A DNA stretch of 64,000 nt, taken from contig JAPLOA010000054.1 of the NCBI GenBank assembly GCA_026400835.1, forward strand, positions 62,001 through 126,000, written 5' to 3'. Origin of the DNA: Planctomycetales bacterium (GTDB lineage: Bacteria; Planctomycetota; Planctomycetia; Planctomycetales; Planctomycetaceae). The notes beneath the pieces are model-generated. The model made no database searches. It saw only the letters and a list, made by a program, of their open reading frames with translations, and had not been told where the DNA came from. A program made the translations under genes and the position numbers. Position 1 is the first letter of the stretch. Each line of letters starts with the position of its first letter. Of this stretch, positions 38,146 to 61,829 are shown in pieces.

Positions 38146-38169
38146 GGTTGAGCTCGGTTTCACTAAAGA

Positions 38170-41773: not shown

Positions 41774-43600
41774 TCAGGGATTGCGTTGAATATCCTCGGG
41801 CCGGGCACTGTTCGGCAACCGCTGTTTGTCTTTGAAGAACGCCCAGACTCGCTCTGCGCCGGAAAATGACGCGATCGGCGCATTTCCTTCTCGGCGAGCT
41901 CGGGAGCCGGGCCAGCCGTGCCCTCCTTCTGAGTCTTCCAAGAAGATCGTCGTCGCTCCGTTGGGTGTGGCCTCATACGTGGCTGTAGTGACCGTCCCCG
42001 TCGTTTCGATCGCAGGATGCGGATCGGATTTATTCACGTCTACCCAGAACGCAACCACGTCCTTCAGGGGCTTGTATGGCGCATCCTGAGCGCGGCGCAC
42101 GATCGGATTTCGGCTCATGCCGCCCTCGATCGGCACTTCTTCGTCCTTCGCCCCGTTGATAATGAGGACCGGCAACGGAACTGTCGGCCTCGTGTCGAAC
42201 GTGAACATGGAGGCCACGACGGGAGCGATCGCTGCAAGGCGCTCGGGGCGTGTCACGGCGTAGACGAACGTCATCATCCCGCCATTGGATCCACCAGTCA
42301 TGGAGATTCGCGTCGGATCGGCACCATGGTCGTTCACGAGCGTGTCGATCAGCGTATCGAAGTAGGCGATGTCATCGGCGTCTTGTACCATCCGACGCAT
42401 GAGAAATCCTGTGTTCCAGGCATGGCGATCATTACCGAAGTCTGTTCCTTCAGCGTAGACCACCATGAAGCCGCTTTCCCTCGCGACGGCGTCAAAGCCC
42501 GAGTTGGCCCGCATGACTTCGGCGCTGCCCATTCCGCCGTGGAGTACGATCACCGCAGGTCGTTTGGCCGGATCTGAGGAGGAGTTGACGACGACGGCCC
42601 GACGATCCTGCTCCCTGATCTTCAATGAAACGATAACGTCAGGTTTTGCGGCCGTGGGCTTGATGCTAGCTTCGTCACCAAACGCCTCGCGATAGAACGT
42701 CCAATTGGAGTCACCCAGGGCTTCGAGCGTCTTCATGGGGTTATGGTCCACTCCCGGCAGCACTGTCCATGTGTGTGGGATCCTGAGGCTTTCAAGATGC
42801 TCATGAAAGTCACGGTTCGGGCCGAAGGTTTCGTCCTGATCGCCGCACACCTGCCGAACGAGCGAGTCCCTGATAATAGCGTCCGCATTTTGCTCGGCGA
42901 GTCGCCGTGGACTGACGCTCTTGAAATACTCCTGATCGCCTCCGTAAACCTGCTGCAAAACTTCTGCGGCTCGTTTCCTGCCAGCTCGCGGGGCCTGGAT
43001 GAGTTCAGCTTGCAGCGGACCGCCGCCCATGATTGACACCGCACGGAACAGATCGGTGTATTTGAATCCCAATCTTGCGGCACCGTAACCGCCCATGCTG
43101 TATCCATCGAGCAATCTGCCTTCACGTGTCGCAATGGTGCTATACGTTGCATCGATATGGGGCACGAGTTCTTTGACGATGATGGTTTCCATCGGCACCG
43201 ATCCGTCCTTCCAATCGACGTACATGCCTTCGACAAGTCCATTAACGAAAACCACAAAACACGGCAGAGTTTTGCCTGCTTCGATGGCGGCGTCAAAGTG
43301 AGCGGCGACTTTTGCTAACCCAGCAACTCCACCACCAGATCCATGCAGCCAATAGACGACGGGGAATCGCCGTTGTGGTTCGCGATCGTAGGCTGCTGGC
43401 GTGTAGAGATGGTAACTGACTTTGCCTTTGGCGGCAGCGCTGTCGAACGTATGAAATGTGATATGCGGAGCTTTCACTTCAGGCGTGACCCAGTCTAGTC
43501 CCGAATGCGATTCAACTTGCGGTGCTGTTGGCTGCGCCACGGTGGGCGTAAGCAGGAGCAGGAGAAAAAACAAGGCTACTGCTCGAGTTGCGTATTTCAT
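41774..43600 (-). CDS. secreted double esterase (two alpha/beta-hydrolase domains)
   Basis: A 608-residue exported protein (signal FFLLLLLTPTVAQP) with two hydrolase domains in tandem. The first, about residues 40-310, has PVVYWLHGSGGG and the nucleophile serine at 168 (LLDGYSMGGYGAARLG), like EstA/esterase D enzymes. The second, about 325-600, has PAVIVLHGGMGSAEVM and serine 437 (SMTGGSNGGMMTFVYA) with a late histidine in EDSEGGHGWPG, like LpqC/PHB-depolymerase and feruloyl esterases. The ATG at 43600 overlaps the stop of the upstream esterase gene by four bases. Likely removes ester groups such as acetyl or feruloyl from a polymer. Confidence 0.88.
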   Translation of the reverse strand: MKYATRAVALFFLLLLLTPTVAQPTAPQVESHSGLDWVTPEVKAPHITFHTFDSAAAKGKVSYHLYTPAAYDREPQRRFPVVYWLHGSGGGVAGLAKVAAHFDAAIEAGKTLPCFVVFVNGLVEGMYVDWKDGSVPMETIIVKELVPHIDATYSTIATREGRLLDGYSMGGYGAARLGFKYTDLFRAVSIMGGGPLQAELIQAPRAGRKRAAEVLQQVYGGDQEYFKSVSPRRLAEQNADAIIRDSLVRQVCGDQDETFGPNRDFHEHLESLRIPHTWTVLPGVDHNPMKTLEALGDSNWTFYREAFGDEASIKPTAAKPDVIVSLKIREQDRRAVVVNSSSDPAKRPAVIVLHGGMGSAEVMRANSGFDAVARESGFMVVYAEGTDFGNDRHAWNTGFLMRRMVQDADDIAYFDTLIDTLVNDHGADPTRISMTGGSNGGMMTFVYAVTRPERLAAIAPVVASMFTFDTRPTVPLPVLIINGAKDEEVPIEGGMSRNPIVRRAQDAPYKPLKDVVAFWVDVNKSDPHPAIETTGTVTTATYEATPNGATTIFLEDSEGGHGWPGSRARREGNAPIASFSGAERVWAFFKDKQRLPNSARPEDIQRNP

Positions 43601-44643
43601 TGCCTGGTTTCCTGCTTCGTTGCGTTGATCGTCGGACGCGGATGTTTCTGGAAAAATTCCCACATCAGGTCGTTTGCGGAAATATCCATGGTCGACTCGC
43701 CGAGACTCGACACGATCGGCTTCTGCCCTGGCCACGTGTGTCCACCACCTTCGATTTCGATAAGGACCACCTCGCTGTCTTCGCGGCCGCCGCTCCATGT
43801 CTTGCGGTTGACCTTCATGCCGTCGTCGGCCTTGTCCGGCAAGGGGGTGATTTCGGGGTCGTTCATGCAGCCATTTGCCTGCACCCATCTTTGAATCGTG
43901 TGATCCACCGATCGGAATTTCGTGATTCCATTTCGGCCGAGGAATCCCTTTCCGAAGCCACCCTTGAATGGGGCGAACTCGTCCTTTGTGCCATGAAAGT
44001 GCATCACCGGCACCGGCCGTTTGTTGCGGGGAGCCTCCATCATCAGCGGGCCGCCGACTGGGGCGATGGCGGCGATGCGATCAGAAAGTTCCGAAGCGAC
44101 GTAATGCGACATGATGGCACCATTCGAGAGCCCGGTCGCGAAGACACGATCTGCATCGACATTGGTCACCCTCGCGAGATCATCCAGCAATTCGCGAGTG
44201 AAGCCCACATCGTCAATGTTGTTTTGCATCGCGTAGCCGCAACATTCGCCACCGTTGAATGTGAGCAAAGTGTTGGCCAGCTTGCCGGTGCCATACGGAT
44301 AAACAACAATGAAACCCGCTTCGTCCGCCTTGGCGTTCATTCCGGTCAGTCGGATCATGCTCTCGGGATTCCCTCCGCCGCCATGATAGACCACAACTAC
44401 AGGCGCAGCCTTGCTCGCGTTGTATTTCTTCGGAATGTAGATGCGATACCGTCGTTCCAGATCACCGACAAGCAACGTCCGCGTGTGATCTCCAGCGCTG
44501 AGCTTGCCATCGCCGTTCTTGTCGCCGCGATAAGAGTTCTCAATTAGCTTTTCTTTTTGCTGTGCTTGCACGAACAGCCCAAGGGTCAAACAGGCGCAAG
44601 CCACCATCGGAACGAACAGCGATACGATCATTATTCTCGTCAT
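43597..44643 (-). CDS. secreted LpqC/PHB-depolymerase-type esterase with EF-hand motif
   Basis: A 348-residue alpha/beta hydrolase with a signal peptide (LFVPMVACACLTLGLFVQA). An EF-hand-like calcium loop DKNGDGKLSAGD lies at residues 41-52, followed by APVVVVYHGGGGNPESM, the nucleophile serine 173 in FATGLSNGAIMSH and the late histidine in EIEGGGHTWPGQ. The family includes acetyl xylan and feruloyl esterases and PHB depolymerases. It starts 12 bases after the mini EF-hand gene and overlaps the double esterase by four bases, so it is part of the same transcript. Confidence 0.9.
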   Translation of the reverse strand: MTRIMIVSLFVPMVACACLTLGLFVQAQQKEKLIENSYRGDKNGDGKLSAGDHTRTLLVGDLERRYRIYIPKKYNASKAAPVVVVYHGGGGNPESMIRLTGMNAKADEAGFIVVYPYGTGKLANTLLTFNGGECCGYAMQNNIDDVGFTRELLDDLARVTNVDADRVFATGLSNGAIMSHYVASELSDRIAAIAPVGGPLMMEAPRNKRPVPVMHFHGTKDEFAPFKGGFGKGFLGRNGITKFRSVDHTIQRWVQANGCMNDPEITPLPDKADDGMKVNRKTWSGGREDSEVVLIEIEGGGHTWPGQKPIVSSLGESTMDISANDLMWEFFQKHPRPTINATKQETRQ

Positions 44644-44655
44644 GGATTCACTCCC

Positions 44656-44865
44656 TTAACCATCCTTGTCCGCGTCCACGGCATAAAACCATCGCGGCTT
44701 GCCAGCCTCTTCTCGCGATACTTTCCCGTTCGCGTCTTTATCGAGCTGTCGAAAGAGGTCGCCGACAGACTGGAAGGTCAGCGTCGTCTGAGCCGTCAGA
44801 CTAGAGGCGGTTAAAACGGATACGACGATCAGTAATGCGATTGAGATAACAGACATTTTCATCAT
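44656..44865 (-). CDS. mini EF-hand secreted protein
   Basis: A 69-residue exported protein: signal peptide (MSVISIALLIVVSVLTASSL), one complete EF-hand loop (DKDANGKVSREE) and a second that stops right after DADKDG. The ATG at 44865 is preceded by TTTGGAGG and overlaps the preceding stop (ATGA), so translation is coupled to the serine hydrolase gene. The abrupt end in the second loop suggests either a shortened calcium-binding peptide or the left-over of a longer gene, perhaps once joined to the next esterase. Confidence 0.7.
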   Translation of the reverse strand: MMKMSVISIALLIVVSVLTASSLTAQTTLTFQSVGDLFRQLDKDANGKVSREEAGKPRWFYAVDADKDG

Positions 44866-46307
44866 TTCGTCCTCCAAAGTGCCTTGAGCTCGTTCTCCGT
44901 GACGAAGCCATCCTTGTCTTCATCCAGCAGGTCAAAGAGTGCGGCGGGCAGTTCGTCGCGGCTCAGCTTGCCGTCATTGTTTTTGTCGCGTTGTTTGAGA
45001 GGGCTGCTTGTGCCACCTGTGCCGCCGAGTGTGCTGTTCATGGAGGGTGCTTTGGCAACGATGCCGAGGGCTTCGCTAGCGAGGGCGAGGAAAGCGGGGT
45101 AAGTCGGGGCTTTATAGTGCTCGGTCTGGACCATGAAGAGTGTGAACGAGGTGTTCTTGCGGTCGATGACGAATTGTGTGCCGTCCGCGCCACCCCAGCC
45201 GTAGCTGCCCGCACCGTTCACGATGCCACCGAGGCCGTACTTCATCGTCGGATGCTTCAGGTGGTTCTCGAAGATCAGGTCGACCGTCTCGGGCTTGAGC
45301 ACGCGCACGCCGTCGAGTTCTCCGCGATTCAGGATCATGCGGCAGAGGCGTTCGTAATCGCCGATCGTTCCGAACAACCCGTGCCCGCCCAGGAACAATG
45401 TCGGTTTGGTGAAGACGCGGCTAAGGCTAAGATCGTTACCCGGCAAGAGCACGCCCGGTTTCGGTTGACCATAAATCCGACAGAGCCGATTGACCTTCGA
45501 CTTCGGCACATAAAAGTCGGTGTCCGGCATCTTGAGCGGCTTGAACAGCCGCTCCTGAAGAATGACGTCGAGCGGCTGGCCGGTGATCGCTTCGAGATAC
45601 CGCCCGAGGATGTCCAGCCCCAATCCATAGTTGTAGTTCGTGCCCGGCTGAAACATGAGCGGCTCTCTGGCGACAGCTTCTGAGAACTCTTTCAACGTCG
45701 TGCCCGGCTTGGTTATCGCCTGATATGCCATCGCGGCGGCTTGCTGACCGCCGCCGTAGCCGAGTCCACTGGAGTGGCTCATCAGCATGCGCGGCGTGAT
45801 GGCGAACTTCGCCGGGACGACGTTATCGCCATCTTTCACCGTGGGGCTGGCCCACTCCGGACAATGCTTCGAGATCGGATCATCCAGCCCGAATTTTCCC
45901 TCGTCGTAGAGTGTCAGCGCCGCCAGCGCGATGACCGGTTTGGTCATGCTCATCAACCGGAAGATCGCGTCATCGGTCATCGGGCGGTTCTGCTCGATGT
46001 CCGCCATCCCGAACGTCTCGAAGTAGCCGCGATGGCCGTTCTTGTGAATGATGGCTGAGATGCCCGCGACATTTTTCGCCGCGACATGCTGCTGCATTTG
46101 GATGTCGATCTGAGCCAACAACTCCGGCTTCATGCTGGCCATCGTCGCTTCCGAGCCGTGGGGGCGTGGTTTGAATTTCTCGGCAGGAGGCAACGGCGCA
46201 CCTTCCGAGACACCCAGGCCCTTCCACTGTGCAGCCTTGCCAGCAGATTGAGCGAACGCGTGAGTCGCAAGCGTCAAAATCAGAAGAAGTGGAAACAGGG
46301 TCTTCAT
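44862..46307 (-). CDS. secreted beta-lactamase-fold serine hydrolase with EF-hands
   Basis: A 481-residue protein of the class C beta-lactamase/family VIII esterase group. It has a signal peptide (LFPLLLILTLATHAFA), the SxxK catalytic pair at 120-123 (RLMSMTKPVIALAA) and the tyrosine near 227 (PGTNYNYGLGLDILG), then GGIVNGAGSYGWGGADG in place of KTG. The C-terminus carries two EF-hand loops, DKNNDGKLSRDE and DEDKDGFVTENE. Such enzymes cut esters, amides or peptides; resistance to beta-lactams is unlikely. It starts two bases after the TolB-like gene and overlaps the mini EF-hand gene. Confidence 0.9.
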   Translation of the reverse strand: MKTLFPLLLILTLATHAFAQSAGKAAQWKGLGVSEGAPLPPAEKFKPRPHGSEATMASMKPELLAQIDIQMQQHVAAKNVAGISAIIHKNGHRGYFETFGMADIEQNRPMTDDAIFRLMSMTKPVIALAALTLYDEGKFGLDDPISKHCPEWASPTVKDGDNVVPAKFAITPRMLMSHSSGLGYGGGQQAAAMAYQAITKPGTTLKEFSEAVAREPLMFQPGTNYNYGLGLDILGRYLEAITGQPLDVILQERLFKPLKMPDTDFYVPKSKVNRLCRIYGQPKPGVLLPGNDLSLSRVFTKPTLFLGGHGLFGTIGDYERLCRMILNRGELDGVRVLKPETVDLIFENHLKHPTMKYGLGGIVNGAGSYGWGGADGTQFVIDRKNTSFTLFMVQTEHYKAPTYPAFLALASEALGIVAKAPSMNSTLGGTGGTSSPLKQRDKNNDGKLSRDELPAALFDLLDEDKDGFVTENELKALWRTK

Positions 46308-46309
46308 TG

Positions 46310-47263
46310 TCAGTTCGGCGTCGCCTCTCCATGTGGGTAACGGTAGTCGGCCTTGTCGTCGGTCGAGACTTGCTTAGCCGAGCCGTCAGCCAACGTGTAG
46401 AGGAACAGCTTACCGCCGGCGTGATAGACGATAGCGGTGCCGCCTTTCGTCCAGCGTGGGTAGTCGAACCAGACCTTTTTTCCCTCGGCGTTGGCGAAGG
46501 GTTGGGCGTTGGAGATGGTGCGTGTCTTCACATCGAAGTCCGCAACGTAGAGCGTGCGGCCGGGAACCTCGTTCTTGAAGCCGGGGTGGTAGTCAAAGCA
46601 GATTTTTGTCTCATCTGGCGACACGCTGATGCGGTCGAGCAGGCCCGTCTTCGCCAAATCACAATCGATGCGTTCGAACTTGGCCTCGCCTCCGGGATTG
46701 GGCGTCATCAGGAAGTAGCCGTAACCGAGTTTTCCGGGAGCACCGGAGACGAAGAGCCTGCCATCACGCACCGCGGAGTGGACCCACGCATGCTGCTCGG
46801 GGCTGGTGAGCGCGATTTCCTCGCCCGGTTTGCCGCCGATTCTCCCGGCCAAGATGTGGAAGCCGCCTTTCTCGCCGTTCTTGCGGTTCCAGACCGGGGT
46901 GTTCTTGCCGTCGCGCGTCCAGGTGGGATTGAAGTCGGTAAAAGTGCCGTCGGAGAGCTGATGAAAGCCCGTGCCATCCGCGTTGATGATGCACATCGCG
47001 GTGATCCACTTGGTGACTTCCGGGTCGTCCTTGAGACGGCGGAAGAAGACGAGATGATCGCCAGTCTGCGACCACGACGGCTTGAAGTCCCAATGCCCGG
47101 TGGTGATCGGCTTTCCTTCCGGCTGGCCCAGCACATTCACGTGGATCTCACCGTTCTTGTAGTACGACGAACGGTGGCTTTCCTCTGCCAACGCTGACTT
47201 CATGCCGAGAGTGGTCAGCAACGCTGACAGGCAAATCAAGTTCAAGAACAGACGCGGCAACAT
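46310..47263 (-). CDS. secreted TolB/PD40-like propeller protein
   Basis: A 317-residue protein with a signal peptide (FLNLICLSALLTTLGMKSALA) and repeated beta-propeller blades such as KPSWSQTGDHLVFFRRLK, FNPTWTRDGKNTPVW and ISVSPDETKICFDYHPG, like the PD40 repeats of TolB and oligogalacturonate lyases. No catalytic residues were identified. A start at 47398 would overlap the previous stop by four bases but would place 45 extra residues before the signal peptide, so 47263 is chosen. It probably binds or recognises a polymer for the other enzymes. Confidence 0.8.
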   Translation of the reverse strand: MLPRLFLNLICLSALLTTLGMKSALAEESHRSSYYKNGEIHVNVLGQPEGKPITTGHWDFKPSWSQTGDHLVFFRRLKDDPEVTKWITAMCIINADGTGFHQLSDGTFTDFNPTWTRDGKNTPVWNRKNGEKGGFHILAGRIGGKPGEEIALTSPEQHAWVHSAVRDGRLFVSGAPGKLGYGYFLMTPNPGGEAKFERIDCDLAKTGLLDRISVSPDETKICFDYHPGFKNEVPGRTLYVADFDVKTRTISNAQPFANAEGKKVWFDYPRWTKGGTAIVYHAGGKLFLYTLADGSAKQVSTDDKADYRYPHGEATPN

Positions 47264-47394
47264 GGCAGGTTCTTTTCGTAGCAGTTCTGTGCCGAAATAC
47301 GGCAGCATCAGGCTAATGTCGCGAGCCGCCAAAACGTGAAAGCGAATGGAGCGCCCAGTGAGGACCGGAGTGCTGAAGTGGTGCGGTTTTGTGC

Positions 47395-49473
47395 TCATGG
47401 CTTTGCATCATAAATTGGTTGGGGTACCGCAATTGAACCGCTCACTGTCGCCGAATTCGGGGCATATCCCGCTTGGGTGGTCTCGCCAAAGTTGACCGTG
47501 ATCGCGACCTCGCCATCTGCATGCTGGAACGTAGTCCGTTGCACGAGCCTGTCTTCACTCAGGCAGGCGAAGCGCTTCAATGGCGCGGTTGCCAGCTCAC
47601 GGTGGAGCGGTCCCCAAAAGGCCAAATGTCTTAGAACGCGCTCGCGCCGTCTCGGCCACGTTTCCCGGTTGAGGTGGTACATAGGCGGCACCATGTAGAG
47701 GATTTCGAGCAACTCCCGAGTTTTCTCGACATCCGTGAGCTTCAAAGAGTCAAAGCTCCAGTGATGTGTGGCAATGAGTTCGTCGCCCACTGCAGCCTGA
47801 TAGAGCGGAATGCGAACCGTGGGATCGAAATACGGCGTTTTTAGCGAGGGCGGAATGGTGACTGGCGTGAAGGATTGATCTGGTCTGTCCGGTGGGTAGA
47901 AGCGGCCAAGAAAATGAGGGCTTTTCGTGTCTTTGAAGGAAGGTGACAGATGACCGATATACGGCGTGTGAACTCCGTGACCAAAGTGAATCACGTCGGC
48001 GAACAGGACCGATCCACCCTCGCTGCCGACAACCATCTTGTGTTCGGTCTTCAGCCACGCCAGACGCTGCCTTCGCAGTCGTGTGTCCTCGCTTTTTGCA
48101 GCTGAATGTTCGGGGCTGAAATCGTCGAAGCACTCAGCGGTGGCGTCGCAATCGATGAACCAGGCTGAGTAAGGTACTTGCTGGACAATGCCGCCAACAC
48201 GATTCTGCACATAGGGCCAGGCGGCTTTTGGTGAAAAGTGAAATCCCCGGCCCTTGAACCCCCCGTATCCCGATCCATCGGCATTGATGACGCGGCCTTG
48301 TTGATAAGCCGTGGCGTCGAACTGGGCTGTCTCCCAGGTGTTATCGGGACCGGCAGTTGGCGAGTGGACGGAATGGTAGGAGTCGTAAGGCCCAATCAGG
48401 AAACCAAGCTTCTCGGCGTGGGTCACAACATCTGGCCGGAATGACCGACCATACAAATCACTTAACAGCAGGAGCGCGCGGTCAATTCCCGCGTCGTGAA
48501 GCGAATCCAGCAGAGGCATGGAAAGTCCATCACCCCAGGACTCGGGCGGATTGACATAACTTCCGAACGCAGTCGCCAGCGCCTGCTGATTGCGCCGAAT
48601 TACGTCCGCTGCCGGGACATCTGGCGGAAGATTCAGGAGATCATTTCCCGACAGCACCACATCGATGGCCCCAGCAAGGCTGCCAGTCAGGTAGTCCATC
48701 GGCCACTCAGCAGCGGCCAGTTCCTGCAGATCACGGCGCTGGTCCTCTGGAAGGAGTGCTGCCAATTTGCCACCGAAGCTCTCGGGGGCGGCATCCCGGA
48801 GCGATTTGGCGAACAGCACCCATTTGTTCCTTGGAATATCGTGCTTGCTGAACAGGGCCGGTCCCCAAAGATAAAAATGGGGCGCACCCGGCAGGCGTTT
48901 TGCTTTCTCCAGGTCTTCCATTTTCTTTTTGAGCGAACGTGGAACTGGAATGGCACCAGTATCGGTGGCGCTGAGGCGCCATTCGCGAAAGGCCAGGGCG
49001 GTTTCCAGGGGATCATTGCCGCGACGCATCGCAACGATGTTGCACGGCGTCGCCAGGTGCCGGCCCTTGGGAAAGGAGTATCGGATGCCGATTCGGTCCT
49101 GCACAATCAATTCCGCGTAGTGCGGCCAGGGGACGATGACAACGATCGTTTCGTTGTCGAATCTTAGTCCCAGAACCGGCAGTTCCAGAAGAGACCACGG
49201 AGAGCCTTCTCGGAGCCAGCGCATCAGGTCCGGCCGGGAAGCATCCACAACAACTCCAGCGGAAATCGGCAGGACATATTCCCCGGCTCCCGCCGGCAGC
49301 CACCAGGTAAACTCGCCTGACTCGTCAACCTCGGAATTAAACGCAACCGGTTTGTCTGTGATCTCTTCACGGCGAAGCTCTTGCTGTCCGGGTTGGGCGA
49401 AGACAGCAACGGGCATGCTCAACGCTATGATCGTGATGCAGATCGTGGTTCTCAGCTGATCGTTGAAAGTCAT
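47395..49473 (-). CDS. large secreted glycosidase-like protein
   Basis: A 692-residue exported protein (signal TTICITIIALSMPVAVFA). Features are a beta-rich N-terminal part (FTWWLPAGAGEYVLPISAG), HFYLWGPALFSKHDIP and a barrel-like centre with RALLLLSDLYGRSFRP, LIGPYDSYHSVHS, SAWFIDCDATAECFDDFSPE and MVVGSEGGSVLFADVIH. The aspartates in the DCDATAECFDD segment and the glutamate in GSEGG fit a glycosidase active site, somewhat like the GH101/DUF5696 type. I cannot place it in a family with certainty. Start at 49473, seven bases after the sulfatase stop. Confidence 0.72.
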   Translation of the reverse strand: MTFNDQLRTTICITIIALSMPVAVFAQPGQQELRREEITDKPVAFNSEVDESGEFTWWLPAGAGEYVLPISAGVVVDASRPDLMRWLREGSPWSLLELPVLGLRFDNETIVVIVPWPHYAELIVQDRIGIRYSFPKGRHLATPCNIVAMRRGNDPLETALAFREWRLSATDTGAIPVPRSLKKKMEDLEKAKRLPGAPHFYLWGPALFSKHDIPRNKWVLFAKSLRDAAPESFGGKLAALLPEDQRRDLQELAAAEWPMDYLTGSLAGAIDVVLSGNDLLNLPPDVPAADVIRRNQQALATAFGSYVNPPESWGDGLSMPLLDSLHDAGIDRALLLLSDLYGRSFRPDVVTHAEKLGFLIGPYDSYHSVHSPTAGPDNTWETAQFDATAYQQGRVINADGSGYGGFKGRGFHFSPKAAWPYVQNRVGGIVQQVPYSAWFIDCDATAECFDDFSPEHSAAKSEDTRLRRQRLAWLKTEHKMVVGSEGGSVLFADVIHFGHGVHTPYIGHLSPSFKDTKSPHFLGRFYPPDRPDQSFTPVTIPPSLKTPYFDPTVRIPLYQAAVGDELIATHHWSFDSLKLTDVEKTRELLEILYMVPPMYHLNRETWPRRRERVLRHLAFWGPLHRELATAPLKRFACLSEDRLVQRTTFQHADGEVAITVNFGETTQAGYAPNSATVSGSIAVPQPIYDAKP

Positions 49474-49480
49474 GGCACGC

Positions 49481-51070: not shown

Positions 51071-51091
51071 TTCCTTTGTCTCCCCGGCTTT

Positions 51092-51341
51092 TCAATGCTC
51101 TTTGTTGCGACTCTGTTCCATAAAGAACTTCATGATCTGCTCGGTCGCCGGATCGCCATCGATTCCGATGTTGTAAGCGAGCGTTTGATGGGTGCGGTCC
51201 TTCGCTTCATAGACCTCAGCCTTTTAGCGGTGCTCCTTCAACTTCGCTAACACGCCACAATCCATCCGCGTCCGCAGTGGATTGACCGTAAACCTTCGCG
51301 GAAAGCGTGATCATTCCGACGAGGATCATTCCAATCCTCAT
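51092..51341 (-). pseudogene. frameshifted small exported gene, remnant of a hydrolase
   Basis: The frame from the ATG at 51341 gives MRIGMILVGMITLSAKVYGQ (a signal peptide), then STADADGLWRVSEVEGAPLK before a stop. In the +1 frame the sequence continues AEVYEAKDRTHQTLAYNIGI, then DGDPATEQIMKFFME to a stop at 51092. A single frame change would restore about 83 residues. The second part resembles the C-terminal end of secreted alpha/beta hydrolases, so this is probably a deletion remnant of such a gene. It sits inside the operon between the sulfatase and the redoxin fusion. Confidence 0.55.
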
Positions 51342-51412
51342 GCCTTCGTACCGTTTTTGTCGCAATGCAGACAAGTGAAACATCATTCCTGAATTCCCAC
51401 GACACGGGTGAG

Positions 51413-53731: not shown

Positions 53732-53748
53732 TTTATCTTCCCGATCGC

Positions 53749-55137
53749 TTAAGAAAATATTTCCTCATGAACCATTCCTTTGACATCGGTCAGGCGCATG
53801 TCGCGCCCTGCGAAACGGTATGTGAGGCGTTCGTGGTCAAGACCCAGAAGGTGCAGAATCGTGGCATGCCAGTCATGAACATGCATTTTGTTTTCAACCG
53901 CTTCGTAGCCAAAGTCATCCGTCGCACCGTATCGCAGCCCGCCTTTCGCACCGCCGCCAGCCATCCAGGTTGTGAAACCAGTGTGGTTGTGGTCGCGACC
54001 GTCGGCGATCTGGGCGTACGGCGTCCGACCGAACTCACCGCCCCAGAGGACCAGTGTGTCTTTCAGGAGGCCGCGTTCGGCGAGGTCGCGGAGTAGTCCC
54101 GCGATCGGTTTGTCGGTCTCGCCAGCGTGCTTGCCGTGATCTTCCTTCAGGTTCCGATGCTGGTCCCAGCCACCGTGGCAGACTTCGACAAATCGCACGC
54201 CCGCTTCGAGCAATCGCCGGGCCATCAGGCATTGCCGACCGAAGTCGTCGGTTTCCGTGGGTCCGATGCCGTACAAAGCCTGGGTCTCGGATGATTCCTG
54301 TGACAGGTCGATCACAGGCGGCAATTCGCCCTGCATGCGGTAGGCCAGCTCGTGGGCTTCAGTGAGTCCTTCCAGGAAGGGGTTGTTCTGGTCGCGCTGC
54401 TGAGCAGATGCATTCAATGACTGAATGAAGGCGAGCTGTTCTTCCTGCGTTGGCTGTGACCGCGGACTCTTCAGATTGGCAACCTGAGCGCGGGCAATGG
54501 CCTGTCGATTCGTTCCGATCTTCGTGCCCTGATAAGAGGCCGGCAGAAAGGCGCTGCCATAGTTCGTGGAGCCGCCGACACCTGCTGGAGGGCTGATTGT
54601 TACGAAACCGGGGAGATTTTCGTTCTCCGTTCCCAGTCCATAGAGCACCCATGCTCCCATCGAGGGTCGCGGAGATGTCGAAATGCCGGTGTGCAACTGG
54701 ATAAAGGCAGGAGGATGAGCGGGAATGTCGGTCTGCATGCTGTTGATGACACACAGCTTGTCGGCGTGCTGGCGGATTTCGGAGAACAAGTCCGAGATCC
54801 ATAAGCCTGACTCGCCGTGCTGCCGAAACTCCCACGGCGACTGCATGAGTTTTCCATTGGGGACCTTGCCCTTGCCGATTGACTGACCGTCACGTTTCGC
54901 TAGTTCGGGTTTGTAGTCGAACGAATCGACGTGCGACGGTGCCCCTTCCATTGTGAGCATCAGCACACGTTTCGCTCGCGGTTCGAAATGTGGAGCTTTG
55001 ACCGCGAGGGGAGATTCTGCAGCGAACGAGACTTGCCGCATCATCGCAGTGTAAGCGACGGCACCGAAGCCATAGCTCACGCTACGGAGGAACGAGCGGC
55101 GGTTGGTCATGGAGTATTCGAGTGGTGACATGATCAT
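53749..55137 (-). CDS. DUF1501 secreted protein
   Basis: DUF1501 proteins have a sulfatase/alkaline-phosphatase-like fold and in planctomycetes are paired with DUF1549/DUF1553 proteins; their reaction is unknown. The 462-residue product has a twin-arginine-like leader (NRRSFLRSVSYGFGAVAYTA), RVLMLTMEGAPSHVDSFDYK, TGISTSPRPSMGAWVLYG, RFVEVCHGGWDQHRNLKEDH and LVLWGGEFGRTPYAQIADGR with the HNH tract DHNHTGFTTWMAGGG. ATG at 55137 is preceded by TAGGAAC, five bases after the stop of the 1351-residue gene, giving the usual DUF1553-DUF1501 order. Confidence 0.93.
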   Translation of the reverse strand: MIMSPLEYSMTNRRSFLRSVSYGFGAVAYTAMMRQVSFAAESPLAVKAPHFEPRAKRVLMLTMEGAPSHVDSFDYKPELAKRDGQSIGKGKVPNGKLMQSPWEFRQHGESGLWISDLFSEIRQHADKLCVINSMQTDIPAHPPAFIQLHTGISTSPRPSMGAWVLYGLGTENENLPGFVTISPPAGVGGSTNYGSAFLPASYQGTKIGTNRQAIARAQVANLKSPRSQPTQEEQLAFIQSLNASAQQRDQNNPFLEGLTEAHELAYRMQGELPPVIDLSQESSETQALYGIGPTETDDFGRQCLMARRLLEAGVRFVEVCHGGWDQHRNLKEDHGKHAGETDKPIAGLLRDLAERGLLKDTLVLWGGEFGRTPYAQIADGRDHNHTGFTTWMAGGGAKGGLRYGATDDFGYEAVENKMHVHDWHATILHLLGLDHERLTYRFAGRDMRLTDVKGMVHEEIFS

Positions 55138-55142
55138 CGTTC

Positions 55143-58100
55143 CTATTTCCTGACGAGGAATTCGCCGCTGGCCCACAGGCTTTGACAGAACGCGGTCCAC
55201 GCCGCGACTTCGGGGCCGCCCGTAACACGACCATCGTTTTTGGCCTTTTGCCGGTAACTTTCGAGGAAGGCGAGGGCTGCGATCCGCTCGGTTTCCGTAA
55301 CGGAACGACCAAACCACCGCTGGTAGGCGAGGTCGATGCGTGAGCCCGGCTCATCGGCATCTTTCATCAATCGCTGGGCTGCACTTTTGGCCAGCCCCAG
55401 CACATACTGGCTGTTGAGCAGATACAGTGATTGCGACGGGACCGTCGTCTCGGACCGTTGGCCGGTGACCACGCTGCCGTCGACGCCATCGAACTCTGCG
55501 AGAGACGCAAACACACGGCCGCGAATTGCGGGCAAATACACCGAACGGCAGTTGAAGCGTTGTTCAGCGAGTTGGCCACCGCGTTCCAATCCACCCGTGT
55601 AGCCTTCCCCGCCGATTGCGACCGCTGAACCGCCGGGCGGCTTCAGATCGAGTCGCCCCCCTGTCGCGAGCATCGCGTCGCGGATCGCTTCGGCGTCGAG
55701 ACGTCGCGGTGACATCCGCCATAGCCAAACGTTCTCCGGGTCCTTTTCGAAGTTCGCCTCCACGAATGTCGCATCCAGGCGATAGACTCGACTGAGCACC
55801 ATTCGGCGAATCAGTTTCTTCAACGACCAGTCGTCTTCGATGAATGTCACGGCCAGATGATCGAGTAACTCCGGATGGCTGGGAGCCTGTCCGGAGGCAC
55901 CGAAATTATCCGGGGTCGCGACGAGTCCGCGACCAAACAGATGAAGCCAGACGCGGTTGACAAACACTCGGGCGGTCAATGCGTTGTCCGGAGAAGAGAT
56001 CCAGTTGGCCAACTCGAGTCGACCACTTCCTGATGACACGGTCGGCGCGGTCGCACCACACAGTACCTGAACGAAGCCACGGGGCACCATTGCTCCGGGT
56101 TTCTCGACATCACCGCGAATGAAGAGTTCTGAGTCCTTCGCTGCCGTTCGGTCACGAACTCCCATCGCCAGCACTTTGGGCGTTCCGTCGGCTTCATACG
56201 CTTTGAGCTTTGCTTCAAAGGTGTTCAGCAGGATGCCATTCTGCACAAACTCCAGAGACGCGAATTGCTTCTTCTTCGCCAGTTCGGCTCGCTTGTCGCG
56301 GAGATCCGTAATCTGCTTTTCCAGCCGCGTCCGCTCGGCAGCGCTCAGGGGCGGCACGCCGGCCGACATTCCCGTGGAGTTCCCCAGCGTCAGCAGTTCC
56401 GACGGGTTGTTATTCTGAATGACCGGGATGGTGCCGTAGAGCGTTTCTGTGCTCCGAAAGATGCCCGCGAGGGCGTAATAATCGGTCTGCGGGATCGGGT
56501 CGAACTTGTGGTCATGGCAGCGTGCGCAGGCCACGGTCAAACCGAGAAACGCCTGACTGACCGCATCGATTTGCTCGTCGGCAAGGTCCATTTCGAACTG
56601 CTTTTTGTTCCGTTCAATGTGTGACTTCGGACCGAGTGCCAGGAATCCCGTGGCGATCATCCGTCTTGCCTGTTGAGTGTCGTTGTCCGGTGGCAACAAA
56701 TCACCGGCGGTCTGCTCTCGAATGAACTGGTCGAACGGCACATCGGCGTTGAACGAATCAATCACGTAGTCGCGGTAACGCCACGCCTGCGGGTAGCTGA
56801 AACTGGTTTCCTTACCGCTCGACTCCGCGTACCGAGCAACGTCCAGCCAATGCCGCCCCCAGCGTTCGCCAAAATGAGACGAGTCCAACAACCGATCGAC
56901 AGTGGACTCCAGGGTCTGCTGTGGAGAATTCTGCCAGTCGTTGACGAAAGCCCGCACTTCTGCCGGCGTGGGCGGCAACCCGATGAGATCAAAGTACAAC
57001 CGACGTACCATAGTGAGTGGTTCAGCATCGGCAACGACACTCAGACCGTTCTTTTCCTGAGCCGCCAGAACAAACCGGTCGACCTCAGTCAGTGGCCACG
57101 ATTCGTTCTGGATCGGCGGAAGCGGTGGCTTCACAGGTCGCTGAAACGCCCAGAACCTGCGTCCCTCCTCGATATCGATCGCGGAGGACGATTCGGCGGC
57201 GACTCCCTCGCGCGGATCAACGGCGCCCGTCCTGATCCACGTCACAAAGTCGGCAATCTGTTCCTCGGTGAGTTTTTGTTTTGGTGGCATTTCTAATCCG
57301 TCTTCGTGACGGATCGCCGCGATCAGCAGACTTGCCTTGAGGTCGCCGGGGACAACGGCTGGACCTGAGTCGCCGCCCTTGCGAATGCCGTCACGCGTAT
57401 CGAGTGCCAGGCCACCTTTGATCTCTTTCGCGTCTGCAGAATGACATGCATAGCACTGGGCGACGAGTACGGGGCGAATCTTCTTCTCGAAATGGGCCAC
57501 CTGGGCCGTTGTGGAAACTGCATCAGGCTTCAACTGCGTGGACTCATCTGAGGGCTTCGACTTCTTTTCCGGCTCTTCGGACTCGGGGCGGCGTGGCGCG
57601 TCTGGCTTTGGCTGTGCGGCCGATTGCTGCCGTTGAATCGTTGCAACCTTGCGGTATTCTTCCAGTGTCAACGTGCCATTCCCATCTGCGTCCAGTCGTT
57701 CAAAGAACTGGTTGAGAGCCGGGGCGTTGTCCCGGAAGATCGCGACCGACTCTTTGAGCTTCTCGACCTCTGTCTCGGTAAGCAGACCATCTTTGTCCGC
57801 ATCGAGAAACCTGAACGCAGTTTCGGGGTCGGCGCGGCGAGCGGTTCCTGTCGTCGGTCTGGTTGCGTCGACTGGTTTGTCAACTGGCATTACGGTTTTC
57901 GCAGGCGGTTCCGGTGTCGGCTTGTCAGCAGCCGTCTCTGAAGGCAACGTCCCAGCATCCGGCTTCCTCTGCAGATGTTTCTGGAAGAAGGCCAGTTCCA
58001 GCTTTGTCGCTTCCTCGAAGCCTTCGCGATAGATGCCATAGTGCGTGATCCCTTTGATCACGTGGTATTCCACAGGAACACCATTTTCTTTCAGGATCGC

Positions 58101-59198
58101 AGCGAACTTCTCACCATTCTCTTTTTGGTTGGATAGCTCTTCCTTCTCTGCGTCGATGAAGATCATCGGGACGCGGATGCGTCCCACGACCTCGAACTTC
58201 TCACCGAAGCCAACATTGCGCGCCGGATCGCGTCGCATGTTCTCATAGCGTTCCATCTTGCCGCCGAGCTTTCCGGTCTCCATGGGTACCGGTTCGATCT
58301 CGCCCCGCGCCTGCTGCGTGAGCAGTGCAAACCCCGCCTTGTCAGTCTGAGGGCCGATGCCTAATCCAGAGACCTGTGCCGCGGCACACTTCACTCGCGG
58401 GTCGATTGCCGCCATGAGTGTTACGAGTCCACCGCCATAGCTGCTGCCGAACAGACCAATCCGATTAGCATCAACTTCTGGTTCGCCCTGCAGGAACGAA
58501 ATCGCCGCACGGATATCATACGTCTGGTCCATCAGGTTCATCTGCCAGCGAATCGGCTTCCCTTTGATCGTGACAGCACCGTCAGTATCGGGCTCCGTCA
58601 GCTTTTCGATGACAAGGATCTCCGATTCACTTTCGCCCCACCCGCGATAGTCAAAGCCAAGACAGATGAAACCGTTTCTGGCCAGTATCGGACCGAGGCG
58701 AGTTGGCAGTCCCTTCTTCGTTCCACCGGTTCCTGCACAGAACACGATCGCGGGCAGCTTTTCACCAGGCTTGCGGCTTTTCGGGAGATAGAGGTCTCCC
58801 GCCAATTTGACGCCGTGACTCCAGATGGTGACCGCTCGTTGTTCGACGTCGTCAGGGGAGGGAGCGGCGTCAACTGGCTCCGCGGCAGCGGAGTTCGCAG
58901 TCGCCGGGTTGACGGCTACGCGCTGTCCTGGTGCCCGGCGTGGATTCTTCGCGAACCAGGCCTGCAACTCTTTGAGCGTCGCGAAACCATCTCCGTCCGT
59001 ATCGACTTTTGAGAAGCCGTCGGGATTCCAGAATTCCTCGCGGCTCAATCTGCCGTCGCCGTCTTTGTCGGCTTTGGTCAGCCACGGCGCACTCTGAGCA
59101 GAAGGAGTAGCTGACTTGCCTGCTTCATCGGCAGCGACGGTCGAACTTGCTGCAAGCAGGGAAACGAGGGATACAAAGAATCGAAATCGATTGTTCAT
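55143..59198 (-). CDS. seven-module EF-hand/hydrolase/EF-hand/PSCyt1/DUF1549/DUF1553 fusion
   Basis: An exported protein of 1351 residues. After a signal peptide come EF-hands at 44-55 (DKDGDGRLSREE) and 66-77 (DTDGDGFATLKE), and an alpha/beta hydrolase of dienelactone-hydrolase style (about 121-410, nucleophile Ser253 in IGLFGSSYGGGLV, histidine 386 in GITHYGIY). Two more EF-hands follow at 467-478 and 503-514, then a planctomycete cytochrome domain with QCYACH (haem at 582-586), DUF1549 (about 700-930, with a second CARCH) and DUF1553 (about 1040-1310). In most planctomycetes the PSCyt1-DUF1549-DUF1553 part is a gene by itself. The start overlaps the anti-sigma stop by four bases. Confidence 0.93.
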   Translation of the reverse strand: MNNRFRFFVSLVSLLAASSTVAADEAGKSATPSAQSAPWLTKADKDGDGRLSREEFWNPDGFSKVDTDGDGFATLKELQAWFAKNPRRAPGQRVAVNPATANSAAAEPVDAAPSPDDVEQRAVTIWSHGVKLAGDLYLPKSRKPGEKLPAIVFCAGTGGTKKGLPTRLGPILARNGFICLGFDYRGWGESESEILVIEKLTEPDTDGAVTIKGKPIRWQMNLMDQTYDIRAAISFLQGEPEVDANRIGLFGSSYGGGLVTLMAAIDPRVKCAAAQVSGLGIGPQTDKAGFALLTQQARGEIEPVPMETGKLGGKMERYENMRRDPARNVGFGEKFEVVGRIRVPMIFIDAEKEELSNQKENGEKFAAILKENGVPVEYHVIKGITHYGIYREGFEEATKLELAFFQKHLQRKPDAGTLPSETAADKPTPEPPAKTVMPVDKPVDATRPTTGTARRADPETAFRFLDADKDGLLTETEVEKLKESVAIFRDNAPALNQFFERLDADGNGTLTLEEYRKVATIQRQQSAAQPKPDAPRRPESEEPEKKSKPSDESTQLKPDAVSTTAQVAHFEKKIRPVLVAQCYACHSADAKEIKGGLALDTRDGIRKGGDSGPAVVPGDLKASLLIAAIRHEDGLEMPPKQKLTEEQIADFVTWIRTGAVDPREGVAAESSSAIDIEEGRRFWAFQRPVKPPLPPIQNESWPLTEVDRFVLAAQEKNGLSVVADAEPLTMVRRLYFDLIGLPPTPAEVRAFVNDWQNSPQQTLESTVDRLLDSSHFGERWGRHWLDVARYAESSGKETSFSYPQAWRYRDYVIDSFNADVPFDQFIREQTAGDLLPPDNDTQQARRMIATGFLALGPKSHIERNKKQFEMDLADEQIDAVSQAFLGLTVACARCHDHKFDPIPQTDYYALAGIFRSTETLYGTIPVIQNNNPSELLTLGNSTGMSAGVPPLSAAERTRLEKQITDLRDKRAELAKKKQFASLEFVQNGILLNTFEAKLKAYEADGTPKVLAMGVRDRTAAKDSELFIRGDVEKPGAMVPRGFVQVLCGATAPTVSSGSGRLELANWISSPDNALTARVFVNRVWLHLFGRGLVATPDNFGASGQAPSHPELLDHLAVTFIEDDWSLKKLIRRMVLSRVYRLDATFVEANFEKDPENVWLWRMSPRRLDAEAIRDAMLATGGRLDLKPPGGSAVAIGGEGYTGGLERGGQLAEQRFNCRSVYLPAIRGRVFASLAEFDGVDGSVVTGQRSETTVPSQSLYLLNSQYVLGLAKSAAQRLMKDADEPGSRIDLAYQRWFGRSVTETERIAALAFLESYRQKAKNDGRVTGGPEVAAWTAFCQSLWASGEFLVRK

Positions 59199-60325
59199 TG
59201 GGGATTCGCCTCCGGAGTTTTTATCCAGCGATCGGCAGCAGGGCCGAACCAGTTGGACATCAGTGTTCGTCGGTTGTCAGGCTGAGTCGTGCGAGTCAGC
59301 AGGCGGAAGGGTTCCGTCAAGTGACCTTCCGGACGGTATTTCAGTTTCTCTGCCGGGCGCGAGTCGATCAAACTGAACGTTACCGTCGACAGTCCCTGCT
59401 GCGGCAGTTCACGCTCGATGACAAGTCGACGAACGGCCTTGGTCTCGCGGTCGACTTCGATACGCGCAGACTTTACCCACCCTCCACGCCATCGATAACG
59501 CGGGGTTACAGTGATGACGTATGTTGAAAGACCTTCATCTTCACGTTTCAGCCGGCAGTGCTTAAGAAAGTTGGTAAGCAGCGTTTCCAGATTCAGTGTG
59601 TAGAGATTTGCGATGTACTCCAAGGGGACTCCGAGTTCATCTTGTTCGACGACAATTGCCTGGCGCGGCCCCAAGGTCAGCCAAATCCCGCCGCCGGACT
59701 CTCGGCCCCAGACCCATTGCCGCTGGCCTCGATTCATCTCCACGTAGAACTGATCCCCCTGAGTCATCACGCGGACTTCACGCGGAGCAGTGATTTCAGA
59801 GAGTCTCGGATTGACCTGCGGAACACTGCCTGATCGAGGATCAGTCGACGCTGCGGATCGATCCACTTCAACGAGATAAACACGCTCGATCGGCGCAGCA
59901 TGTGTTTCGGCCGCGGCGCGAACGATGTTGCTGGCATCTGCCAATGCGCTGTTCTCAAAACGACCGATCAGAAATGCGGCTGCAATCAGGACAACTGCGG
60001 CTGCAACACTACCGATGGGTTTCCAGAGTCGACTTGACGAGCGGACAGGCGAAGCGACCCGGCTCGCTGGTGAGACGACAATGCTCTGCTCTGCCAACTG
60101 CTGCGGCTCCGCGACCAGATCCACGAGTGCCGTTAACGACTCGGCCCCAACCTCTTCCGTCAACAGCGAATCGATCAGCAATTGGTCAATGATGATTTCC
60201 AGCCGCCCGGCATCGACCTGAGCAAGCAAGTTCAGTTCAGTGGCCTCTTCCGCCGACAATTCTCCGTCAATCAATTGCGTGATCAGATGCCTTGTCCGAT
60301 CTGCCGATTGTTCGTTGTTGTTCAT
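59195..60325 (-). CDS. membrane anti-sigma factor
   Basis: A 376-residue protein with a short cytoplasmic N-terminal part (RTRHLITQLIDGELSAEEAT), as seen in anti-sigma factors that bind sigma near the membrane, one membrane helix at about 104-121 (IGSVAAAVVLIAAAFLIG) and an extracytoplasmic domain (RVYLVEVDRSAAST, YVITVTPRYRWRGGWVKSAR). The latter could sense the substrate or be cut to free sigma. No zinc-binding ZAS motif is seen. It overlaps the sigma gene upstream and the fusion gene downstream by four bases each, so the three are translated as a unit. Confidence 0.85.
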   Translation of the reverse strand: MNNNEQSADRTRHLITQLIDGELSAEEATELNLLAQVDAGRLEIIIDQLLIDSLLTEEVGAESLTALVDLVAEPQQLAEQSIVVSPASRVASPVRSSSRLWKPIGSVAAAVVLIAAAFLIGRFENSALADASNIVRAAAETHAAPIERVYLVEVDRSAASTDPRSGSVPQVNPRLSEITAPREVRVMTQGDQFYVEMNRGQRQWVWGRESGGGIWLTLGPRQAIVVEQDELGVPLEYIANLYTLNLETLLTNFLKHCRLKREDEGLSTYVITVTPRYRWRGGWVKSARIEVDRETKAVRRLVIERELPQQGLSTVTFSLIDSRPAEKLKYRPEGHLTEPFRLLTRTTQPDNRRTLMSNWFGPAADRWIKTPEANPQ

Positions 60326-60849
60326 GTGGATTCGCCTCCCGGTGTCAATTGCGTCTGAACACAGGCTTCGAGAGCAGCTCGAATGCGGTACAGCGTCTGA
60401 CGGATCGATCCCGCCGGCCGACCGATTGACTCCGCGATCGACTCGACCGTCTGGCCACTCGCGTAACGCAGGTCAATGAGTTGCCGTTGAGCAGGCGGCA
60501 GTTGCTTAAGGCAGTGGTCGAGTGCGTCTCGTCGTCGGTCGAGGTCCTGCAGTTTTTGCTCCGCCATCGCCGCTAACTGTTGCAATACCGCATCGTCAAA
60601 CACGAGCCGTTCACGACCGTATTTCCGCACCTGGTTCAGCACTTTGAATCGAGCAATCTGGCTGGCCCAGGCCCAGAAATCGGACCCCGGCTGGAATTCA
60701 TCGCACTTCTCCCAGAGGACGACATTGATTTCCTGCAACAAGTCATCCACATCACTCGGCCGGACCATCAAACATCGCACGAAGGCTCTGAGCCGCGACT
60801 GGTGTCTGGCGATTTCCTGAACGACTGGATTTGGCGGTTTTTTGCTCAC
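60322..60849 (-). CDS. ECF-type RNA polymerase sigma factor
   Basis: A 175-residue sigma factor with region 2 (FVRCLMVRPSDVDDLLQEIN, then SDFWAWASQIARFKVLNQVR) and region 4 (LPPAQRQLIDLRYASGQTVE, SIAESIGRPAGSIRQTLYRI). It resembles the Rhodopirellula/Verrucomicrobium-type sigma-70 group (gvs1) found next to large secreted-enzyme operons. The start is GTG at 60849 with CTGGAG upstream. The stop overlaps the anti-sigma start by four bases. It most likely drives the leftward genes to 41.8 kb, and perhaps to 36.9 kb, when the anti-sigma factor lets go. Confidence 0.92.
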   Translation of the reverse strand: MSKKPPNPVVQEIARHQSRLRAFVRCLMVRPSDVDDLLQEINVVLWEKCDEFQPGSDFWAWASQIARFKVLNQVRKYGRERLVFDDAVLQQLAAMAEQKLQDLDRRRDALDHCLKQLPPAQRQLIDLRYASGQTVESIAESIGRPAGSIRQTLYRIRAALEACVQTQLTPGGEST

Positions 60850-61225: not shown

Positions 61226-61330
61226 GCACAACACCTTTCGGCATCAACGAAAGAATCACCCTTTGCCGGTTTTATTTGGGAGCAGGAAGTCGCAGTGCTC
61301 AACGCCTTTCGGCATCAACGAAGGAATCAC
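61226..61330. CRISPR. vestigial CRISPR array: two 34-bp repeats and one spacer
   Basis: Repeats at 61226-61259 and 61297-61330 share 31 of 34 bases, with common core CCTTTCGGCATCAACGAA. One 37-base spacer lies between (61260-61296), a period of 71. The GCC-TTTC-GGC centre of the second copy is a small palindrome, as in many CRISPR repeats. No third copy was found on either side. A cas4-like fragment ends 13 bases away, which supports the reading as a CRISPR remnant. Confidence 0.65.
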
Positions 61331-61343
61331 ACAAGCCGAGCGG

Positions 61344-61721: not shown

Positions 61722-61829
61722 AAAACGACTCCAAAAATCGTGGTGACGAATGGACCTCGCCGTGGTTACAATATTACTTCGTCCTATCGGGTTATCATCC
61801 AGTCAAGGTCTTGCAACCGGAGATCCATA

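Follow-up and report, generated by a model that had tools for sequence, protein, structure and literature searches.

In Rhodopirellula baltica, the extracytoplasmic function (ECF) sigma factor RB10049 has been proposed, in passages of PMC2754498, as the regulator of the PSD1/PSC2 protein RB10051, and planctomycete ECF groups are mentioned in general terms in parts of PMC8103513. In freshwater Verrucomicrobia, parts of PMC5615132 place PSCyt genes next to two recurring families and, often, close to sulfatases, suggest a role in carbohydrate use and call PSCyt/PSD function unknown. An ECF-led PSCyt/PSD module is of a known kind, already proposed in Rhodopirellula. Here we examined a row of 12 minus-strand genes that begins with an ECF sigma factor gene at 60849 and ends with the esterase gene est2 at 41774, in a 64,000-nucleotide stretch (the window, G000:C10:62001-126000) of a 7.58-Mb assembly, planctomycete by its gene content. 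All of the genes named in a first-pass annotation of this DNA are present, on the minus strand and where it had placed them. Its statement that no such system had been described holds for the exact set, which we did not meet elsewhere, but not for its parts, given the proposed ECF control of a PSD1 gene (PMC2754498) and the PSCyt genes near sulfatases (PMC5615132).

We regard the row as probably a composite, sigma-controlled utilisation operon, made up of a core that recurs in pieces in relatives, a lineage-specific cassette, and a sigma factor exchanged together with the head of its anti-sigma partner. The core would comprise the sigma factor, a membrane anti-sigma factor, a PSD1 fusion protein, a DUF1501 protein, a fusion of redoxin, cytochrome c and copper-monooxygenase domains (the redoxin fusion), an esterase and possibly PSD4 and DUF1552 proteins. 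The cassette, between the redoxin fusion and the esterase gene est1, would hold a sulfatase, a GH129-type glycosidase, a propeller protein, an EF-hand serine hydrolase and a mini EF-hand protein.

Recurrence of the core was assessed in 22 redoxin-fusion neighbourhoods, namely the 20 best matches outside the window, one in genome G013 and a partial one in G011, with G051 skipped (L numbers denote loci). PSD1 and DUF1501 genes precede the redoxin fusion on the same strand in 5 of the 22 (L037, L044, L046, L054, L056); L046 shows DUF1501 only, as its contig ends inside that gene. A hydrolase like est1 or est2 follows the redoxin fusion in 10 (L037, L044, L046, L048-L053, L058), several of which are very similar neighbourhoods within one genus, and a sigma/anti-sigma pair lies ahead of it in one (L009). 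Nine loci had no core neighbour (L042, L043, L045, L047, L055, L057, L059, L060, L061), and contig ends truncate some of these. The sigma/anti-sigma/PSD1 order was found in three further genomes (L062, L064, L065), with DUF1501, then DUF1552 and PSD4, downstream in L062 and L064; in L062, a second sigma and a FecR-domain protein lie between DUF1501 and DUF1552. The DUF1501 gene stands directly behind PSD1 in L037, L044, L054, L056, L062, L064, L029 and L023, as it does in the window, at a distance of 5 bp. In a tree of 12 PSD1 sequences, four from elsewhere in the window's genome, the window protein groups with L054 and L056 (0.999), joined to L062, L064 and L065 (0.982). The window DUF1501 protein likewise groups with those of L054, L056, L062 and L064 (0.980), with own-genome L032 next.

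The switch of the row has a different partnership from that of its relatives. The window sigma scores 178.9 bits on TIGR02989, over the curated cut-off of 124.55. The protein encoded behind it had no match in Pfam or NCBIfam, and three matches to solved structures, at E = 0.59 or worse, were not accepted; we call it an anti-sigma factor because of its place behind the sigma gene and its relatives. A search at E<=0.001 detected such relatives in 5 of 58 other genomes, and one at E<=1e-20, with five candidates per genome scored, in 5 of 391 others. A sigma gene lies directly upstream at all 10 homologue loci, with PSD1 directly downstream in three (L062, L064, L065) and the redoxin fusion in one (L009). 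The window anti-sigma is 38.5% identical to that of L009 over 353 aligned positions. The sigmas at these 10 loci form one clade: five of them, taken as queries, match the set at 36-82% identity. Identity of the window sigma to those five is 23-41% along 49-142 residues (E between 0.04 and 3e-5), and to the L011 sigma 28% along 170. The three of the 10 that were scored on TIGR02989 reached 42.9, 42.0 and 35.7, under the cut-off. The pairing of this sensor domain with a TIGR02989 sigma, unlike at the 10 other loci found, is new here.

The anti-sigma head was compared with models of the heads that partner TIGR02989-like sigmas and of the other heads. The window head (first 98 residues) scored 9.8 bits on the former and 0.0 on the latter, and 500 shuffles of it reached at most 7.2 and 8.6, respectively; leave-one-out scores ranged from 2.1 to 21.4 for TIGR02989-partner heads and from 13.1 to 43.9 for other heads. 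The sigmas of L028, L030 and L031 are TIGR02989 members; the assignment of those next to L025, L029 and L032 is by BLAST similarity only. In the window, both the sigma (TIGR02989) and the N-terminal head differ from those otherwise found with this sensor, which suggests that the two were swapped in together and the sensor domain was retained. Given the limits of the head comparison set out below, the swap rests mainly on the identity of the sigma. If it occurred, it would be a concrete example of rewired ECF signalling. The L062 row, which holds both sigma types, is an example of how they can meet.

Other arrangements of these sigmas were seen. At L062:4403-15850, the leading sigma is not a TIGR02989 member and the one that accompanies the FecR-domain protein between DUF1501 and DUF1552 is; a further sigma relative lies at 2003-2701. 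Within the window's genome, 3 of 12 sigma matches have a same-strand PSD1 match within 6 kb downstream. On contig C52 of that genome (L028:3032-5757), a TIGR02989 sigma overlaps a protein with PSCyt2 and PSD1. The first 220 residues of that protein have no Pfam match and may be a fused anti-sigma head. On contig C65 (L031:6623-14252), a TIGR02989 sigma, a probable anti-sigma and two sulfatases form a same-strand row.

Among the core proteins, the PSD1 fusion unites PSCyt1, PSCyt2 and PSD1, each above its Pfam cut-off, and has two CxxCH motifs. Relatives of its N-terminal part occur in 3 of 391 other genomes, with three candidates per genome scored; all are unfused, in frames of 366-401 codons. 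We infer that the fusion and the cassette are lineage-specific additions. The start of the DUF1501 protein holds NRRSFLR, which we take to be a twin-arginine-like motif. In the redoxin fusion, the cytochrome c stretch is below the Pfam cut-off and the C-terminal copper-monooxygenase domain (PF03712) scores 24.4 bits against a cut-off of 23. The redoxin C166 and the CxxCH residues C321, C324 and H325 are invariant in 16 of 16 aligned homologues, as are H467, H468, H525, H591, H593 and M672, which by the PHM pattern are presumably copper ligands. Planctomycete genomes carry dozens of PSCyt/PSD copies (96 PSD1 matches in this one), and the row ties one of them to a copper-monooxygenase fusion, through an order shared by several relatives. 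In the window's genome, that protein is also tied to a sulfatase and a glycosidase, so that a substrate test is possible.

A composite operon of this kind would work as follows. The anti-sigma sensor domain would detect a signal outside the inner membrane, and the sigma, once released, would transcribe the row and with it its own gene. The products would be exported by Sec, the DUF1501 protein probably by the twin-arginine (Tat) route, to the periplasm or the surface. There, a glycan that is sulfated and acylated would be unmasked by sulfatase and esterase domains and would lose an alpha-linked end sugar to the GH129-type enzyme. Oxidation of the products, or the passing on of electrons, would fall to haem and copper proteins, namely the PSD1 fusion, the redoxin fusion and perhaps PSD4. 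The EF-hand pairs most likely bind calcium and so stabilise or anchor individual proteins, and are less likely to be docks for a scaffold. The first-pass annotation had described a regulated, calcium-dependent complex at the surface or in the periplasm that removes sulfate and ester groups and then oxidises or cuts a polymer. The data support a set of hydrolytic and oxidative enzymes, led by a sigma and probably exported, but not EF hands that act as one docking or sorting tag. The proposed chemistry has plausible agents in the carrageenan-sulfatase-like sulfatase, the GH129-type glycosidase, the esterase domains and the six candidate copper ligands.

Several observations weigh against a composite operon. 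No other examined locus combines the sigma, PSD1, DUF1501 and redoxin fusion. The conserved order that the first-pass annotation had advised looking for in relatives is present for parts of the core, but at the loci examined it was not found for the whole row. At 6 of the 10 anti-sigma relatives (L010-L013, L063, L066), neither PSD1 nor the redoxin fusion is a neighbour. The own-genome DUF1501 protein on contig C67 (L032) is also close to that of the window, at 52% identity. Two of six left-out TIGR02989-partner heads (2.1, 6.0) fall below the best shuffle at 7.2, and the head segments are short and cut by eye, with only six sequences in that model. The PSD4 and DUF1552 proteins are 31% and 33% identical to the copies in the L062 and L064 rows and are in swapped order (PSD4 first in the window, DUF1552 first in those rows); because of this, we regard it as no more than possible that they are the end of an ancestral unit. 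The copper domain of the redoxin fusion had no solved relative in the PDB by sequence profile. The sulfatase-glycosidase-propeller-serine hydrolase set was absent from the 43 other neighbourhoods that we examined, made up of 22 redoxin loci, 9 anti-sigma loci not among these, 11 glycosidase loci and L014, so that the cassette has been seen in one genome only. Scans for control sites were uninformative, with 4 conventional promoter sites against 7.2 in shuffles and 14 terminators against 21.0, and control of the PSD1 gene by the sigma is predicted from gene order. Finally, parts of PMC5615132 predict PSCyt products to be periplasmic or cytoplasmic and report PSCyt density to be inverse to that of glycoside hydrolase genes.

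Table 1. Features of the row and its downstream flank, in the direction of transcription; positions are those of the window.
Feature	Position	Strand	Basis and remarks
ECF sigma factor, TIGR02989 (Rhodopirellula/Verrucomicrobium family)	60322..60849	-	Pfam sigma r2/r4; GTG start
Membrane anti-sigma (putative)	59195..60325	-	Head, transmembrane-like stretch (by eye), rare-family sensor domain; 4-bp overlap with sigma gene
PSD1 fusion: EF pair, alpha/beta hydrolase, EF pair, PSCyt1, PSCyt2 (DUF1549), PSD1 (DUF1553)	55143..59198	-	Pfam
DUF1501 protein	53749..55137	-	PF07394 E=1.8e-142; start corrected
Redoxin fusion: EF pair, redoxin, cytochrome c (CVECH), type II Cu monooxygenase, EF pair	51413..53731	-	Pfam
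Intergenic gap, 342 bp	51071..51412	-	No called gene; two frames with short open stretches
S1-type sulfatase with C-terminal EF pair (loops 479-490, 501-512)	49481..51070	-	PF00884
GH129-type glycosidase	47395..49473	-	PF11308 E=8e-94
PD40/WD40-like propeller candidate	46310..47263	-	PF07676 20.1 bits, under Pfam cut-off 20.9
Serine hydrolase with C-terminal EF pair	44862..46307	-	PF00144
Mini EF-hand protein, 69 aa	44656..44865	-	Signal-like start; second loop cut short by stop
Esterase est1, scl-PHA-depolymerase-type catalytic domain, one EF loop	43597..44643	-	NF050058 172.6 bits, cut-off 150
Esterase est2, N-terminal PF00756 and C-terminal NF050058 domain	41774..43600	-	NF050058 160.4 bits, cut-off 150
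Coiled-coil-like protein	40702..41442	-	By eye; 331 bp past est2; membership uncertain
PSD4 protein	38170..40653	-	Pfam DUF1587/1592/1588/1585/1595 and cytochrome c
DUF1552 (HXXSHH) protein	36859..38163	-	Pfam

Gene spacing bears on whether the row is one unit at all. With gene starts corrected by eye beforehand, the gaps from sigma to est2 are -4, -4, 5, 17, 342, 7, 131, 2, -4, 12 and -4 bp, so that 9 of the 11 measure no more than 17 bp; four of these are overlaps of 4 bp. The tight spacing noted in the first-pass annotation applies to these nine; the 342-bp gap between redoxin fusion and sulfatase and the 131-bp gap before the propeller gene had gone unmentioned. Separate transcripts may start at both, which would also speak against one operon. 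Past est2, a 331-bp gap is followed by the same-strand coiled-coil-like, PSD4 and DUF1552 genes, and the unit may continue across it to 36859. The row could instead be separate neighbouring units, namely a core headed by the sigma (60849-51413), a cassette independent of it (51070-41774) and the two genes for PSD4 and DUF1552, a reading with gaps of 342 and 331 bp at both its joints and with the cassette absent from the other core loci examined. We consider it possible but on the unlikely side, given the single strand throughout, the hydrolase behind the redoxin gene in 10 of 22 relatives, and DUF1552 and PSD4 behind DUF1501 in L062 and L064. Within a composite operon, the conserved core and the cassette may have been joined at the 342-bp gap.

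Two short open stretches lie in different frames of the 342-bp gap, one with a signal-peptide-like start, and may be a gene relic; they had no relatives among the proteins of the fetched loci, and the 40-residue stretch had no Pfam match. GC content at third codon positions is 0.79 in the propeller gene, 0.76 in the serine hydrolase gene and 0.53-0.67 in the other genes. Beside the sigma gene, at 61263-62371, a plus-strand open reading frame (ORF) encodes a ParD antitoxin domain, and a 94-residue ORF overlaps its end by 4 bp, possibly as a toxin-antitoxin pair.

The cassette gives indications of a substrate. The sulfatase has a CSPSR sequence, which we take to be the S1-type motif, and its best solved relatives are 6PRM (4e-99) and 6PSM (1.1e-97), exo-4S-kappa-carrageenan S1 sulfatase; it may belong to subfamily S1_19. 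In the glycosidase, D441, D443 and E485 are invariant in 11 of 11 sequences, and its profile matches, weakly, the alpha-N-acetylgalactosaminidase 5WZN (26.9 bits) and the 3,6-anhydro-D-galactosidase 5OPQ (25.7 bits); designed pentatricopeptide proteins ranked above 5WZN were rejected as spurious repeat matches. No glycosidase match was found in 17 other members of the genus, and one, distant, among 58 other relatives in all. At 11 loci with glycosidase relatives of 30-72% identity (metagenome-assembled genomes labelled Verrucomicrobia, Opitutaceae, Planctomycetes, Phycisphaeraceae, Acidobacteriota, Akkermansia and Robiginitomaculum), the neighbours differ. The only window genes shared there (E<=1e-8) are PSD1 and DUF1501 (L023, directly ahead of the glycosidase), distant sulfatases (L021, L025) and a sigma (L025).

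One specific reading of the cassette is a carrageenan-type degradation set, in which the sulfatase would take the 4-sulfate and the GH129-type enzyme would free 3,6-anhydrogalactose. The closest solved relatives of the sulfatase, kappa- and iota-carrageenan sulfatases, and the weak match to 5OPQ point this way, as do passages of PMC5698469 in which a Zobellia locus pairs an S1_19 sulfatase with a GH129-like 3,6-anhydrogalactosidase and carrageenan loci are reported in Planctomycetes. We find this reading doubtful: the GH129 enzyme 5WZN was matched about equally (26.9 vs 25.7 bits), the D441-E485 spacing is 44 against 31 for DagB Asp486/Glu517 (residues whose roles the authors of PMC5698469 left open), DagB was placed outside GH129 by the same authors (PMC5698469), and the 15 genes scanned had no SusC/D, GH16 or GH82 Pfam match. 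For the composite operon, the sulfatase and the analogy to the Zobellia S1_19/GH129-like pairing suggest a carrageenan-like galactan as the substrate, and the GH129 family suggests an alpha-GalNAc glycan.

The row might also be a stress response, with the sigma answering envelope or oxidative stress, as reported for a PSD1-linked ECF factor of Rhodopirellula, and the enzymes remodelling or protecting the cell's own surface polymer. The redoxin domain would fit such a role, but a sulfatase, a glycosidase and several hydrolases fit catabolism better, and PSCyt genes near sulfatases are read in parts of PMC5615132 as possibly carbohydrate-related. We judge a stress function unlikely.

The remaining question concerns the EF-hand pairs (tags), which the first-pass annotation had seen in at least six products of unrelated class and had taken for a possible docking or sorting signal. 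Strict EF loops occur in six such products: four in the PSD1 fusion, three and a degenerate one in the redoxin fusion, two each in the sulfatase and the serine hydrolase, one and a truncated one in the mini EF-hand protein, and one in est1. The glycosidase, DUF1501, propeller and est2 products have no strict loop. EF loops are locally dense in the row. An EF-pair profile of seven tags found 17 ORFs at E<=1e-3 in the assembly, 5 of them in the row, a circular count as the profile was built from the tags; the independent Pfam PF13202 found 8, 2 of them in the row (150 of 186 candidates scored). Matches of the EF profile to calmodulin-type proteins show the EF fold only and were set aside. In homologues of the redoxin fusion, EF pairs stand at the corresponding ends. 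Among 95 other sulfatase matches (E<=1e-90, with nine candidates per genome scored), no alignment runs beyond residue 494 or covers the whole tag, and seven stop at 481-494; the sulfatase tag was perhaps gained.

A tag shared by unrelated enzymes could assemble them into a calcium-dependent multi-enzyme complex, and the similarity of three tags (PSD1-fusion first pair, sulfatase, serine hydrolase) lends this some support. Against 4000 random sets of EF pairs, their mean similarity of 0.50 compares with 0.30 for own-genome pairs (fraction reaching 0.50 = 0.0005), 0.35 for all 78 background pairs (0.028) and 0.37 for pairs with a spacing of up to 26 (0.041), but with 0.46 for relatives' pairs (0.24), a set biased towards similarity because the window profile was used to fetch it. 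Adding the redoxin N-terminal tag gives a mean of 0.408, with fractions of 0.003 for own-genome pairs, 0.15 for all pairs, 0.24 for spacing up to 26, and 0.87 for relatives' pairs (0.461). Aligning the tails, as the first-pass annotation had advised, thus sets three tags above own-genome pairs but not above those of other planctomycetes. None of six window tags has another window tag as its best match; the highest-placed one ranks between 2 and 21 of 79. Recent duplication of the tags is rejected by a DNA identity of 0.43-0.62 between tag segments, and the window's genome had no cohesin (PF00963) match at E<=0.001. The tags are not clearly one operon-specific docking family, and a docking or sorting complex, which would also leave out the four products that lack a strict loop, appears improbable. 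A calcium-assembled, sigma-switched surface machine, in which acquired EF pairs unite sulfatase, esterases, PSD1 cytochrome and copper monooxygenase while the sensor is kept and sigma and head are exchanged, would, if real, couple desulfation, deacylation and oxidation of one sulfated glycan and rewire the same input to another promoter set, and is very improbable.

Further EF-hand proteins were observed. A 1562-codon frame with many EF loops lies in the window's genome (L033, G000:C68:17000-34000). A 711-residue protein at L038:13174-15309 has a C-terminal EF pair of spacing 22, and frames of 705-755 codons with similar matches occur in several genus members.

The composite operon resembles several known systems in part. 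The cohesins and dockerins of cellulosomes employ calcium-binding loops as modules on secreted enzymes; unlike there, no cohesin was found in the window's genome, and the loop spacing is 21-22 in four of six tags. The HH...H...HxH...M series of the redoxin fusion is what we take to be the ligand pattern of copper type II monooxygenases (PHM/DBH). Unlike in those enzymes, the copper domain is fused to redoxin, cytochrome c and EF pairs, and no solved relative was found by profile. The Zobellia carrageenan locus, as given in passages of PMC5698469, resembles the row in that a sulfatase, there of subfamily S1_19, is combined with a GH129-like glycosidase, but has an AraC-family regulator, and no PSD1, DUF1501 or copper fusion is mentioned in those passages. 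The PSCyt/PSD modules of Verrucomicrobia likewise have PSCyt genes near sulfatases, with neither a sigma pair nor EF tags mentioned in section 13 of PMC5615132. The Rhodopirellula RB10049/RB10051 pair, as described in passages of PMC2754498, is similar in that an ECF sigma is proposed to regulate a PSCyt2/PSD1 protein; unlike that case, the window row adds DUF1501, the redoxin/copper fusion and the hydrolase cassette, and its PSD1 protein adds a hydrolase and EF pairs. The core belongs to a known, though poorly understood, type of module; in the row as a whole, the switch and some of the cargo appear to be recombined.

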